From Candidatus Nitrosocosmicus agrestis (GTDB lineage: Archaea; Thermoproteota; Nitrososphaeria; Nitrososphaerales; Nitrososphaeraceae), in contig NZ_VUYS01000013.1 in NCBI RefSeq assembly GCF_008389435.1, forward strand, positions 53,768 to 99,657: a stretch of 45,890 bases of DNA, written 5' to 3'. The notes under the pieces were generated by a model. It searched no databases. It saw only the letters and a program-made list of their open reading frames with translations, and was not told where the DNA came from. How positions within the stretch are numbered: the stretch's first letter is position 1; each line of letters starts with the position of its first letter. A program made the position numbers and the translations under genes. Below, piece after piece: positions 1 through 5,168 of this stretch.

Positions 1-240
1 CCAGCCTCACAACTTGAGCCCTGCTTTGATACCTGAACTTTGTTACCCTTGCCATTATCGCTATCACCGTCGCCTTGTCTACTTATGCTAATATTATTAC
101 AAGAGTTGTTGTTATCTTCTCCAGCCTCACAACTTGAGCCCTGCTTTGATACCTGAACTTTGTTACCCTTGCCATTATCGCTATCACCGTCGCCTTGTCT
201 ACTTATGCTAATATTATTACAAGAGTTGTTGTTATCTTCT
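1..240. repeat. Two identical 120-bp tandem repeats
   Basis: Bases 1-120 and 121-240 are identical, and the segment from 241 starts like a third, diverged copy. The unit is 40 codons long, so copy-number change keeps the frame of the secreted protein. The array may continue outside the window. Confidence 0.95.
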
Positions 241-386
241 CCAGCCTTGCAGTCAGATTCTTGTGAACTATGTTGAACATCAAGGCTCTCATAGTCGTCA
301 CCATTGGGTTCTTCTGCCCATACTCTATAATAATTATTGTTAAAAACTGACAAAAGTGTTATTAAAACGAGTAAGGATATTAACAT
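1..386 (-). CDS. Secreted repeat protein, N-terminal part (cut by window edge)
   Basis: The reading frame enters from the window edge and is open across the whole segment. Starting at the ATG at 386 it gives a hydrophobic stretch (LISLLVLITLLSVF) ending near VWAEE, which looks like a signal peptide. A mature region rich in Asn, Asp, Ser and Gly follows. Two identical 40-residue units containing GEDNNNSCNNIS and QGDGDSDNGKG come next, each with two cysteines. TTG codons at 422 and 425 could extend the start to include basic residues (SKVSFRRFS) before the hydrophobic core, which would make a more typical signal peptide. The C-terminus is not in the window. No family is recognised; a cell-surface or secreted protein is inferred from the signal and the composition. 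Confidence 0.7.
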   Translation of the reverse strand, partial: MLISLLVLITLLSVFNNNYYRVWAEEPNGDDYESLDVQHSSQESDCKAGEDNNNSCNNISISRQGDGDSDNGKGNKVQVSKQGSSCEAGEDNNNSCNNISISRQGDGDSDNGKGNKVQVSKQGSSCEA

Positions 387-841
387 TGTAGAAAACCTTC
401 TAAAAGAAACTTTAGACTGCAACAAATATCTCGTATTTTTTTTAACTATTCAATAAGATATTAAAATTTTTAAAGATTCCTATATAACTTAATTACATAC
501 GAAAATAGTATTAGATAATTCTGTTAATTTATACTATATTTACTATCGCGTTTGATTTGGTTGCATTCATGGATCAAATGCACTATCTCTGATAAGGTGT
601 GTATTTTTTTGTTATCTTGATCTTTTTAATTTTAATTCCTTCTTCCTTTTTCTTTATTTGGATTTATTTACGCCTAAGGATTATCATTTGTTTTAATTTT
701 ATGAATAGTCTTTAGACTTCATATTTCTGTTATTGAATTTATTGCTTGACGTTATGTACATTTTAATCAAACTGAAACCGCACCCAGAAACTATTATTAA
801 ATAAGATACCCAAAATCTAATAAAATAAGGGGAGGAGGGTC
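387..841. other. Divergent intergenic region
   Basis: This AT-rich spacer separates the minus-strand secreted protein from the plus-strand polymerase fusion. TATA-like runs lie near 480-490 on the minus strand. No gene or RNA was recognised. Confidence 0.5.
829..839 (+). promoter_or_regulatory. Strong Shine-Dalgarno site
   Basis: The purine run GGGGAGGAGGG ends three bases before the ATG at 842. It is unusually strong for this window and fixes the start of the fusion protein, implying a leadered transcript. Confidence 0.7.
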
Positions 842-3055
842 ATGAAATTTTTTGTTGGATGTAGTGGCTGGAGAAGTCAAAATTGGTCTAATAATTTCTA
901 TCCAAAAGGGCTTGATCCGTCGCATTATTTATCTTACTACTCGAAAGTTTTTAACATGGTGCATGTAAACTTTGGTAACATTTCATACCTTCCAAAAAAA
1001 TCAACCTTGGAGCATTGGGCGAATGAAACACCTGATGATTTTCGTTTTACCATTAAAATTCCGCAAAATATTATTGACAGATCAGCCGCTAAATATATGC
1101 CTCAGACTTCTGATTCTTTTTCCGGATCAATTCAGGACTTCCACATCTCCTTAGGGGATTTCCTCGAAAGCCTGAGCAATATTGAGGAAAAAACTCTATC
1201 TGTTTTGATATCTCCTCCGAATGGTTTGACGTTACAAAACAATGGACGTGTTTGGTTAGAGGATATACTAGCTAAATGTACCTATCATGGATACTCTGTA
1301 GTAGTTGATTTTGGCAAGATCAGTTCTTGGTACCAAGAACTGATCTATAATATTCTACGAAAACATAAAGCCTGCTTTACTTGGTCAAATGTTGGCCATC
1401 AATATTACTATCCTGCAATTACTTCAAATTTTGTATTCTTAAATCTGTCTGGTGTTTATATTAATAAAAACACCGCTATCAAATATATAAATTTGATAAA
1501 AACCAAGTCTTCAGAGCAGGGGAGATATGATAAAGAATACGACCTACTTAGATCCAAAAAAAGCCAAAATTTTGGGAATTACCCTAAAGAAGAGGGACTA
1601 GACTTTGCCATGATAGTAGCTCAAAACCCCTCTATATTACAAATGCTTCAAAAATTACTAAGGGTCGAAAAATTGGATCAGATTACTCCTTCCGTTAGAG
1701 AATCATTGCCGGATCTATCAAAAATCTGGTCTGGAAGGGTTATAATGCATATAGATATGAATGCATTCTTTCCTGCCTGTGAAGAACTTCGAGATCCTTC
1801 CTTAAAAGGTAAAGCTCATGCAGTTATTATGACCCCTGAGAAAGAAATGGGCGGAATTACTAGAGGAGCGGTTGCCTCTTGTTCTTATGAGGCAAGAAAA
1901 TACGGTGTCAGATCTGCCATGTCGTTGTCAAGGGCCTTGGAGCTGTGTCCAGGCCTGATTCTAAGACCAGTTGATAAAGAATATTATAACTTGATATCCC
2001 AACAAGTCATGCGACTTTTAGAAGAATATGCTGATGTTTTGGAACAAACTAGTATCGATGAAGCATACATTGACTGTACAAAAAAGATTACAATGCAACA
2101 AAATACTTATCCTCTTGAGTCAACATCAACCGCTAATTGCCGTTCAAACGAAAGTCCATTGTCTCAAGACTCGTCATATCAATCTTCATCGATCCCGAGT
2201 TCCCAATCTAATGGTCATAATAGCTTTTCTGTTAAGGACTATGCTCTAAAGATAAAATACTCAATCAGAGAACAGTGTGGAGGACTAGCGTGTTCTATCG
2301 GTGTTGCTACAAATAAATCTACCTCTAAAATAGCATCCGACTTTCAAAAACCTGATGGATTGACAATTGTTTATCCCCAAGAGACCAGGAATTTTTTGTC
2401 CAAACTAAATGTAGATCAAATTTCCGGTATTGGGGTCAAAACAACAAAGTCCTTAAAGGATATGGGAATCCAAATTATTGGAGATCTTGCAAATGTAGAT
2501 ATCCAAAGACTGACAGAAAGGTTCGGAAAAAAACAAGGATTGTGGATGTGGCAAATAGCAAATGGTAAAGAAAATGATTTGGTTGTTCCTAGAGAGGACA
2601 ATATATCGCTAAGTACTGAAGAAACTTTGCTTGAGCCAATCCGAGATAAAGAAGAAATTTTAAAAATACTTCTTTCTAGGATGACTGATGATATATACAA
2701 TCGAGTGACAAGAAAGGGTTATGAATTCAAAACAATCGGAATTAAATTAGTTAGATCTAATTTTACCATAGAAACACGAGAAACTACTTACTCTACCTAT
2801 CAAAAATCCAAAGAAAGTATTACTTCAGTCCTTGAAATGTTGTTGGACAGATTTACCTTTGAGGATGAGTGTGAGCAACAGGATTATGAAACGGTTTCTT
2901 CTCCTTCAAAAATAAAAGAGCAAAAAGACCTCACTCCAATAACGAAAAAAGTGTATCCTTTCTACGTCCGCAAATTAGGGATAAAGATATCAAATCTTTC
3001 GAGGATAGATTCAAAGTCCAAAAAAGCTCAAAGATCTATACTCGATTTTGTTTAA
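842..3055 (+). CDS. DUF72 domain fused to Y-family DNA polymerase (DinB/Dpo4-like)
   Basis: This 737-residue protein has two parts. Residues 1 to about 250 match the DUF72 (YecE-like) pattern: VGCSGWRSQNW near the N-terminus, FYPKGL, a TP..F.F..K segment and the late FVFLNLSGVY strand. From about residue 298 a full translesion polymerase follows. It has MHIDMNAFF with catalytic D305, SYEARKYGVRSAM, SIDEAYID with D406 and E407, a helix-hairpin-helix thumb (QISGIGVKTTKSL) and a little-finger domain. A Ser/Gln-rich insertion of about 45 residues (416-461) interrupts the palm just after the catalytic pair. The C-terminus QRSILDFV resembles a PCNA-interacting peptide. The polymerase part should do error-prone bypass of damaged DNA. 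The DUF72 role is unknown, and the fusion suggests it acts on the same substrate. The start is set by the strong ribosome site. Confidence 0.93.
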   Translation: MKFFVGCSGWRSQNWSNNFYPKGLDPSHYLSYYSKVFNMVHVNFGNISYLPKKSTLEHWANETPDDFRFTIKIPQNIIDRSAAKYMPQTSDSFSGSIQDFHISLGDFLESLSNIEEKTLSVLISPPNGLTLQNNGRVWLEDILAKCTYHGYSVVVDFGKISSWYQELIYNILRKHKACFTWSNVGHQYYYPAITSNFVFLNLSGVYINKNTAIKYINLIKTKSSEQGRYDKEYDLLRSKKSQNFGNYPKEEGLDFAMIVAQNPSILQMLQKLLRVEKLDQITPSVRESLPDLSKIWSGRVIMHIDMNAFFPACEELRDPSLKGKAHAVIMTPEKEMGGITRGAVASCSYEARKYGVRSAMSLSRALELCPGLILRPVDKEYYNLISQQVMRLLEEYADVLEQTSIDEAYIDCTKKITMQQNTYPLESTSTANCRSNESPLSQDSSYQSSSIPSSQSNGHNSFSVKDYALKIKYSIREQCGGLACSIGVATNKSTSKIASDFQKPDGLTIVYPQETRNFLSKLNVDQISGIGVKTTKSLKDMGIQIIGDLANVDIQRLTERFGKKQGLWMWQIANGKENDLVVPREDNISLSTEETLLEPIRDKEEILKILLSRMTDDIYNRVTRKGYEFKTIGIKLVRSNFTIETRETTYSTYQKSKESITSVLEMLLDRFTFEDECEQQDYETVSSPSKIKEQKDLTPITKKVYPFYVRKLGIKISNLSRIDSKSKKAQRSILDFV
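1317..1346. repeat. Perfect 30-bp palindrome inside the DUF72 coding region
   Basis: The 15-base arm AGATCAGTTCTTGGT is followed directly by its exact reverse complement, with no spacer. It encodes residues around ISSWYQELI of the DUF72 part, so it is also under coding constraint. Possible readings are a protein-binding site, a cruciform or RNA hairpin, or chance. Confidence 0.9.
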
Positions 3056-3395
3056 ATTATTATACTTGCCTGGTATTTATGTGGATAAAAAAATAATGTG
3101 ATATATCATGACTTTAAGCACTGATCTCTTATTCAATAAAATAGGGTCCACCCTGCACTTTGATTGTTTAATTCAGATAAAATGCGATGTGGCTGGCGTA
3201 TCAAAGGACATGCCAAATCTTTCTTATCTTTAAGAAGAAATGCAAATCTCCAATCCATTAAGGAACATAATCTTTTATCCTCTTGTTGTTAACTCAATTC
3301 AAACCATTAACTATGTCCGTCTTCGCCCAGACCACGGTAATTGTTTATCTTCTATTTGTTGTTCCACTATTTCCCATACTACACATCACAGTTTT

Positions 3396-4097
3396 ATGCA
3401 TAACAACTCTGTCATGGAATTTCATATAATCCGTTCACATAAAAGAAGAAAAACTAGTGAAATTTTTATACAAGATGGACTCATATATTTAAAAACACCT
3501 TTTTCAACACCTTTAGACGAAATGGAAACTTTGCTCAGAAACAAAGCCAGATGGATAGCAATGAAAGTTAAAGAGCAAACTAATCCTGAAATTACCATTA
3601 AGAGGGCAACTTACAAAGACAATTCGACATTGCCTTATTTAGGTAAAAATTATCCATTGACTGTTGTTCCTTTAGATTCATCAAACACCCATGATTCCAA
3701 AATGTCATTGGAATTCATTAATGAAAAGTTTGTTGTTTACACCAATAGGAAAAATGTAAAGAAAATCTATGAAAAATGGTTGTTTGAAAAGGGTCCTGAG
3801 GTGGTAAATCCTCTTATTACCAAATACTCTAAAATATTAGGTGTATCACCGAGAAAAATATTGTTAAAAAATCTAAAAAGTCGATGGGGAAGTGCTACTT
3901 TTAATAAGACCATTAATCTTAATATTCATCTTTTCAAAGCACCATTGGATGTAGTCGAATATGTTATTGTCCACGAGCTTTGTCATTTGTTGGAACATAA
4001 TCATTCAACTAGATTCTGGAAATTGGTGTCTAATCACATGGCAGACTACAAAACCAAAGTAAAGTGGCTCAAGGTTAACGGCTCATTAATTCTGTAG
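3396..4097 (+). CDS. YgjP/DUF45-like zinc metallopeptidase
   Basis: The C-terminal half carries HELCHLLEHNHSTRFW. This holds the HExxH zinc motif (here HELCH) plus a downstream conserved H..RFW, as in the YgjP (DUF45, M48-related) family. The N-terminal part MEFHIIRSHKRRKTSEIFI followed by the basic helix KARWIAMKVKE also fits YgjP proteins. KSRWGSATFNKTINLN is the family SRWGS motif. The frame is open back to an ATG at 3240, but those 52 extra residues do not resemble the family, so the ATG at 3396 (or 3414) is preferred. Cytosolic location is expected because no signal peptide is seen. Such proteins are often linked to restriction-modification or DNA-processing loci, though no such partner is visible here. 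Confidence 0.8.
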   Translation: MHNNSVMEFHIIRSHKRRKTSEIFIQDGLIYLKTPFSTPLDEMETLLRNKARWIAMKVKEQTNPEITIKRATYKDNSTLPYLGKNYPLTVVPLDSSNTHDSKMSLEFINEKFVVYTNRKNVKKIYEKWLFEKGPEVVNPLITKYSKILGVSPRKILLKNLKSRWGSATFNKTINLNIHLFKAPLDVVEYVIVHELCHLLEHNHSTRFWKLVSNHMADYKTKVKWLKVNGSLIL

Positions 4098-4373: not shown

Positions 4374-5168
4374 GTGTTATTGCAAAAATCCTCTATCCAT
4401 TCTTGTACAATCGTGGTTGTTTTTACACTGGCATTATTTTCTATCGTATTTAGTGAGCAATGTTTTAGCCAAATCAATACACAGAATGTGACTTCAACTG
4501 ATTGTAATATTTACATTAACCATAGTCAAACACTAAAAAACTCTATTATGTGTAATTATGAGAACGGAATCATAATCAACGATAATAACATAACACTTGA
4601 TCTTAATAGTTCAGAATTATTGGGATCAGGATATTTGAATCCATACACTGGCATAATAATATCTGATAAATCTAACATACTTCTTAAAGGAAGTGGTAGC
4701 GTAGGTCATTATCAAACTGGCCTCTTAATTGACAATTCCACAAACATTGATATTTCTTCACTTAATTTTACAGCCAATGAAATATCTATTTTAGTTAAAA
4801 ATTCTTCCTACATCAAGATTGATGATAATAATCTTTTTACCAATACTGCAGGGGTGAAGTTATACACTGTCAATAATTCTTCAATTTCAAATAACTACTT
4901 TGAATCAAATGATATTTCTGCCATATCATTATTTACATCAAAAAATAATACGCTAAACAATAATTCTATTTCTAGCAGTCTCAATGGGATTTATCTCGAT
5001 CCTGAAAGCCAAAACATTACTATAGATTCAAACCGCTTCTCTAGAAGTTTTGGAGTAGATATAAACTTGGGAAATGGTGGCAAAATTAATCAATCATTAG
5101 GTCAAGTTTTTAACAATACCTGCCATGTAACTATTCCCGAATTATTATGTGCAAAAAAAGATAATTGA
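4374..5168 (+). CDS. Secreted NosD-like right-handed beta-helix protein
   Basis: Translation starts at GTG. The first 33 residues form a signal peptide (hydrophobic TIVVVFTLALFSIVFS). The rest is a repeated pattern of short strands rich in Asn, Ser and Ile, such as GIIISDKSNILLKGSGSV, NIDISSLNFTANEIS and NTLNNNSISSSLNGIYL. This is typical of parallel beta-helix proteins of the NosD/PbH1 type. The size (264 residues) suggests a single compact solenoid. A role in cell-surface carbohydrate or metal binding is possible but cannot be told from sequence. No adjacent nos-type partner genes are present. Confidence 0.75.
   Translation: MLLQKSSIHSCTIVVVFTLALFSIVFSEQCFSQINTQNVTSTDCNIYINHSQTLKNSIMCNYENGIIINDNNITLDLNSSELLGSGYLNPYTGIIISDKSNILLKGSGSVGHYQTGLLIDNSTNIDISSLNFTANEISILVKNSSYIKIDDNNLFTNTAGVKLYTVNNSSISNNYFESNDISAISLFTSKNNTLNNNSISSSLNGIYLDPESQNITIDSNRFSRSFGVDINLGNGGKINQSLGQVFNNTCHVTIPELLCAKKDN

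Follow-up and report, generated by a model that had tools for sequence, protein, structure and literature searches.

A Y-family DNA polymerase fused to a degenerate DUF72 domain in Nitrososphaeraceae

Y-family polymerases bypass DNA lesions and are held at their task by the sliding clamp, to which proteins attach through a PCNA box with the consensus Q..[ILM]..[FYW]. The DUF72 family is widespread: a phylum sample has it in 222 of 250 genomes, and a set of 14 named control genomes in 9. The available text of a study of another bypass polymerase, PolB2 (PMC11791011), gives DUF72 proteins no assigned function and reports that their genes are enriched near polB2. It writes the PCNA motif as QxxLxxFF and describes a PolB2 mutasome in which the accessory protein iRadA bears this motif more often than PolB2 itself. 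For the DUF72 protein Tm1631, the available text of Konc et al. (PMC3828134) proposes four residues that touch DNA and an endonuclease activity.

The window (the whole stretch of 45,890 nucleotides from Candidatus Nitrosocosmicus agrestis analyzed here) encodes a protein in which DUF72 and a Y-family polymerase are physically joined. Among the matches listed from full-text searches on DUF72 with polymerase and PCNA, on YecE repair and on archaeal translesion synthesis, the available text holds no account of such a fusion or of a DUF72 clamp tail.

Structure and distribution of the fusion gene

The preliminary description had read a DUF72 domain and a complete polymerase in one frame, and both the open reading frame and a Pfam domain search confirm it for the ATG-started gene of 737 amino acids (Table 1). 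The DUF72 match (PF01904; 9.8e-23, 81.8 bits, cut-off 25.3) falls within the first 250 residues, where it had been expected. The remainder belongs to the Y family by its matches to IMS (5.4e-40, 137.2 bits, cut-off 23.2) and IMS_C (2e-11, 44.7 bits, cut-off 20.7), with a helix-hairpin-helix thumb between them. The catalytic carboxylates D305, D406 and E407 show no variation across 24 fused sequences.

In sequence searches the closest solved relatives of the polymerase part are DinB-type polymerases, and that of the first 300 residues is TM1631 (1VPQ, E 5e-9). Searched with Foldseek, the full predicted model has the polymerase fold: it matches a Dbh/Dpo4 chimera at E 2e-31, and Dbh/Dpo4 and bacterial DinB proteins fill the top rows. 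Structure prediction of the joint, proposed at the outset, recovers the DUF72 barrel but not how the two domains are placed relative to each other (pTM 0.44 for the full-length model), and the connecting linker has pLDDT below 50 at residues 277-293. The Ser/Gln-rich, low-complexity palm insert, also modelled at low confidence, follows shortly after the catalytic DE strand and varies in length; the length seen here occurs only in genus g1. A GA-rich, ribosome-site-like stretch stands before the ATG, as noted earlier.

Table 1. Features of the DUF72-polymerase fusion gene, in window coordinates
Feature	Position	Strand	Evidence
Whole fusion gene DUF72 - Y-family DNA polymerase, 737 aa	842..3055	+	ORF, Pfam; intact in 25/70 family genomes
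DUF72 TIM-barrel domain, ~residues 1-280, pocket residues lost	842..1681	+	Pfam 20-233; model vs 1VPQ; position losses; dN/dS
Interdomain linker, ~residues 277-296, low confidence	1670..1729	+	pLDDT <50 at 277-293; variable length
Palm/fingers, residues 299-500, with D305, D406 and E407	1736..2341	+	IMS 304-500; residues invariant
Disordered Ser/Gln-rich palm insert, residues 423-460	2108..2221	+	pLDDT <50; this length only in genus g1
Thumb with helix-hairpin-helix, residues 522-576	2405..2569	+	PF21999 528-576, PF21704 524-575
Little finger, residues 589-724	2606..3013	+	IMS_C
C-terminal PCNA-box-like tail QRSILDFV, residues 730-737	3029..3052	+	Q..[ILM]..[FYW] in 25/25 fused
Ribosome-site-like stretch ggggaggaggg, GA-rich, just 5' of ATG	829..839	+	Direct reading

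Upstream of the gene (window 1-300) lies a ~120-base direct repeat, with copies from positions 1 and 121 and a third, partial and diverging, from 241. Downstream lie a gene for a YgjP-like metallopeptidase (window 3240-4097, +; PF01863, 1.2e-50) and then one for a NosD/beta-helix protein (window 4374-5168, +).

Intact one-frame fusions occur in 25 of the 70 genomes of the Nitrososphaeraceae family sample and in seven genera: g1 (11 genomes), g4 (7), g6 (3), g2, g10, g70 and g71. So many genomes sharing the fusion rule out an assembly or read-through artefact, in line with the original judgment. An IMS match is present in 54 of the 70 family genomes. The window's genome gave no IMS match besides the fusion, and its three further DUF72 genes all stand alone. 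With no second Y-family polymerase found there, lesion bypass in archaea carrying the fusion may depend on the fused protein. In one further genome (G248) the fusion is divided between two contigs, and in another (G197) the DUF72 half stands alone at a contig end. A relative of the window's genus (G302, locus L104) carries a broken copy whose polymerase end is near that of G100 and whose DUF72 half is interrupted.

Beyond the family, among the matches listed from 300 genomes of the class and 398 of the phylum, only G213 and G533 had polymerase frames longer than 550 aa. The first is two genes with a stop between them, and the second is without DUF72. Two long DUF72 frames (L216 and L230) have no Pfam domain besides DUF72 and appear to be read-through. 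A phage search returned 44 matching records, none covering more than 80% of the query; the plasmid search was run with stand-alone DUF72 as its only query. On a Shinella plasmid (L246), a bacterial DUF72 gene has DNA-repair genes as neighbours, with Ku/DNA ligase D on one side and a DNA-3-methyladenine glycosylase on the other.

Fold and lost residues of the fused DUF72 domain

The DUF72 domain had been called complete-looking, which is right for the fold and wrong for the pocket. Its AlphaFold2 model (m7a8881ac78a8; pLDDT 87.6, pTM 0.84) aligns with 1VPQ over 227 residues at Z 22.0 and rmsd 2.8 and is a TIM barrel. Sugar epimerases come next in the fold search (Z about 13), and AP endonuclease family 2 (3ngf) reaches Z 11.5; UVDE is absent among the best 50 rows of either domain fold search. 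A shared fold shows no function.

We compared 25 fused sequences, counting one cut by a contig end (L017) and leaving out L008 as a near copy of L006, with stand-alone DUF72 proteins. The stand-alone set for the position count had 56 sequences, without members of further DUF72 subfamilies (L033-L062 and some others). Of its 56 positions with at least 90% conservation, 22 are shared by at least 80% of the fused sequences and 34 fall short of that level. The kept positions hold G, C, W, F, Y, L, V, P, K or T, whereas those lost include most of the polar ones: H81 (retained in 0/25), R144 (1/25), S14 (3/25), Y50 (4/25), Q112 (7/25), R191, N229 and the H231-F235 loop (L127 numbering). Alignment-independent motif searches gave FNN in none of the 25 fused against 105 of 119 stand-alone sequences, E-x-D-x-x-[FYI]-Y in none against 117, an EFRH-type motif in one against 111, and K..TH in four against all 119. 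The residues for which DNA contact has been proposed in Tm1631 (S10, Y48, H79 and Q114, matched by our own reading of the alignment against the available text of PMC3828134) have counterparts that are kept in 3, 4, 0 and 7 of the 25, respectively. By sequence and fold, the fused domain is a degenerate DUF72 member.

Gene pairs in sister lineages and the clamp-type tail

Separate DUF72 and polymerase genes are neighbours elsewhere in archaea. In three other families (f4, f7 and f12) a DUF72 gene lies just upstream of the polymerase on the same strand. We examined 20 such polymerase loci from families other than Nitrososphaeraceae (L133-L151 and L124): an upstream DUF72 is found in 14 and is absent in f5, f9, f11 and the second copy in f7. 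The preliminary description had suggested surveying how often the two are adjacent as well as fused. In 80 loci from a scan of named genomes, chosen by likeness to the paired DUF72 and to two copies from the window's genome, the polymerase is the next gene downstream of a canonical stand-alone DUF72, on the same strand, in 37. This figure consists of 36 counted loci and L187, where an overlapping ORF hid the pair, and it includes one record labelled Euryarchaeota (L215). Over all loci, whose sets overlap because some contigs are common to both genome collections, there are 39 distinct pairs with a median gap of 7 nt; pairs with a polymerase ORF shorter than 300 aa were excluded from the gap and tail counts, and near-identical tails were counted once in the motif, tail and pair counts.

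These neighbours in sister lineages, together with the enrichment of DUF72 genes near polB2 (available text of PMC11791011), support the functional link to bypass synthesis that had been suggested from the fusion. The accompanying suggestion that the fused domain itself acts on damaged DNA is not supported, as the residues conserved in stand-alone DUF72 are mostly gone from it.

A maximum-likelihood tree of 77 polymerases, which does not include that of L215, splits into two groups (100/100). The fused polymerases form a clade (100/100) inside one of these, together with the polymerases of f4, f7 and f12, which are paired with DUF72 in their own families, and a few others; within that group the clade of paired and allied lineages has a support of only 90/67. 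Unfused polymerases of g3, g8, G120, G312 and G194 nest inside the fused clade, so these most likely lost the DUF72 domain after the fusion. The start of the G194 polymerase (NFAIIIVDK...) resembles the end of the fused DUF72 in L018 (FAIIVVDK...), which also indicates loss after fusion. As several members lost the domain, it is dispensable.

In a DUF72 tree, from which four fused rows and 32 locus numbers belonging to close relatives were left out, the fused DUF72s have a long stem (1.23) and fall beside the stand-alone DUF72s of the same family (97/89), outside the paired clade. Either a shared ancestral pair existed of which a duplicate was kept as a stand-alone gene, or fast evolution has misplaced the fused clade. 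This tree does not settle which DUF72 copy was fused or whether the paired lineage was the direct ancestor; the probable origin from a gene pair is based on gene order and the polymerase tree.

The C-terminal tail of the window's protein holds QRSILDF (residues 730-736), which fits the PCNA-box consensus, and all 25 fused proteins carry such a tail at the polymerase end and none at the DUF72 junction. In the 80 loci, the strict motif stands within the last 20 residues of 46 DUF72 proteins, compared with 2 of 36 polymerases and 0 of 467 other same-locus ORFs (mechanically called frames of at least 100 aa, not all of which are genes). From shuffled tails, about 1.3 in 80 would be expected. With a relaxed motif the counts are 70/80 for DUF72 and 8/467 for the other ORFs. 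Across the 39 distinct pairs the tail is on DUF72 in 37 by the relaxed motif (18 strict) and on the polymerase in 3, and unpaired, unfused polymerases carry it in 43 of 49 cases. One of the stand-alone DUF72 proteins in the window's genome (L002) has the tail QSSLSDF.

The simplest reading is that a putative clamp hold by DUF72 serves both partners of a pair. Because the paired polymerases are mostly one clade, the 3/39 may reflect a few events in which the tail changed partner. Bacterial DUF72 proteins have no tail (0/8), the strict tail is absent from the DUF72 loci L033-L062 (0/30), and it occurs in 4 of 30 DUF72 loci of a phylum-wide Pfam sample, none of the ~390-aa type. The claim of a clamp-type tail is therefore limited to one DUF72 subfamily.

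Other DUF72 loci have features of their own. The ~390-aa proteins (L251-L257, L259, L262-L264 and similar) bear a C-terminal extension of more than 100 residues with no Pfam match (L251 was scanned), and the Cys and His residues in that of L251 could bind zinc. Of the 30 phylum loci, 14 have an additional, weaker DUF72 frame next to the strong DUF72 gene (e.g., L253:2321-3250 and L265:510-1430), and a Pfam check of two such frames confirmed them as DUF72. The large subunit of the replicative DNA polymerase D (L191:5099-8665, in a record labelled Bathyarchaeota) adjoins a tail-bearing DUF72 on the opposite strand.

Proposed history and comparison with known systems

We favour, at a probability of roughly 0.55, the reading that a clamp-side DUF72-polymerase pair became one protein in which DUF72 is now a non-catalytic accessory domain. 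The archaeal pair, DUF72 followed by a Y-family polymerase, would have acted jointly at the sliding clamp PCNA until, in the ancestor of the Nitrososphaeraceae, the polymerase became joined to a copy of DUF72. The attached domain would then have lost its conserved pocket, its original activity and its own clamp-type tail, while retaining the barrel and gaining newly fixed residues. Today it would most likely serve as a built-in protein or DNA scaffold, positioning the polymerase at lesions or regulating it there. Bypass would be the task of the polymerase, whose own terminal tail is predicted to hold PCNA, and stand-alone DUF72 copies may supply the original activity in trans.

Constraint on the domain speaks for this reading. 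Ten positions are newly fixed in the fused DUF72, among them R68, R136, W138 and Q165. A sensor of lesions or of DNA structure, binding DNA without catalysis, is the alternative that survives best, doubtful as it is: the conserved aromatic and basic positions R68, R136, W138, W163 and W181 and the DNA-repair context of the DUF72 family would suit it, but the aromatics may be core residues and no DNA-bound DUF72 structure is among the solved matches. It is improbable that the fusion is a passive relic, its co-translation fixed by chance and its extra domain tolerated while repeatedly being lost. The domain is indeed missing in g3, g8, G120, G312 and G194 and broken in G302, yet it is kept by 25 genomes in seven genera, has the ten newly fixed positions and evolves under purifying selection, with dN/dS in 10 close pairs of 0.11-0.23, near the 0.09-0.27 of the polymerase. 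Least favoured, and unlikely, is an active EndoIV- or UVDE-like enzyme that would read the lesion, or prepare it, on behalf of the polymerase: the TIM barrel, the 3ngf match (Z 11.5) among many sugar epimerases, the endonuclease activity proposed for Tm1631 (available text of PMC3828134) and the presence near polB2 of DUF72, termed UVDE-related in fold (available text of PMC11791011), all speak for it, but H81, R144, S14, Y50 and Q112 are mostly lost, the FFNNH loop is gone and the epimerases outrank the AP endonuclease.

Beyond the accessory-domain reading of the fusion, we tentatively propose, at somewhat less than even odds, that this archaeal DUF72 subfamily is a clamp-tethered accessory subunit of Y-family polymerases, a counterpart of a mutasome partner that bears the PCNA tail of the pair and that in Nitrososphaeraceae was fused and lost catalysis. 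If true, this would be the first concrete cellular role for the DUF72 family. For widespread proteins without an assigned function, the pair, the fusion and the clamp-type tail jointly lead to the specific prediction, open to test, that DUF72 and a bypass polymerase work together at PCNA.

The fusion shares parts with several known systems. The DinB-type Y-family polymerases Dpo4 and Dbh of Sulfolobus have the same palm, fingers, thumb, little finger and catalytic acids, but sequence alignments show them without the N-terminal DUF72 and the long palm insert. Stand-alone DUF72 proteins (Tm1631 / 1VPQ; EF0366 / 1VPY, 1ZTV) share the barrel (Z 20.6-22.0), the GCxGW at the start and a number of F, Y, W and T residues; the fused domain differs in having lost the pocket and the FNNH loop and in its attached polymerase. 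The PolB2 mutasome (PolB2, iRadA and PPB2; available text of PMC11791011) resembles the DUF72 pair in that the accessory subunit bears the PCNA motif more often than the polymerase, and DUF72 genes are enriched nearby; it is built on a B-family polymerase with a RadA-like accessory, and that text describes no DUF72 fusion. The DUF72-PolY pairs of other Nitrososphaeria (f4, f7 and f12, and Gagatemarchaeum) and of the L215 MAG labelled Euryarchaeota have the two modules in the same order as the fusion and a related polymerase (that of L215 being outside the tree), but they are separate genes, their DUF72 has a canonical pocket, and the clamp-type tail is on DUF72 instead of the polymerase.
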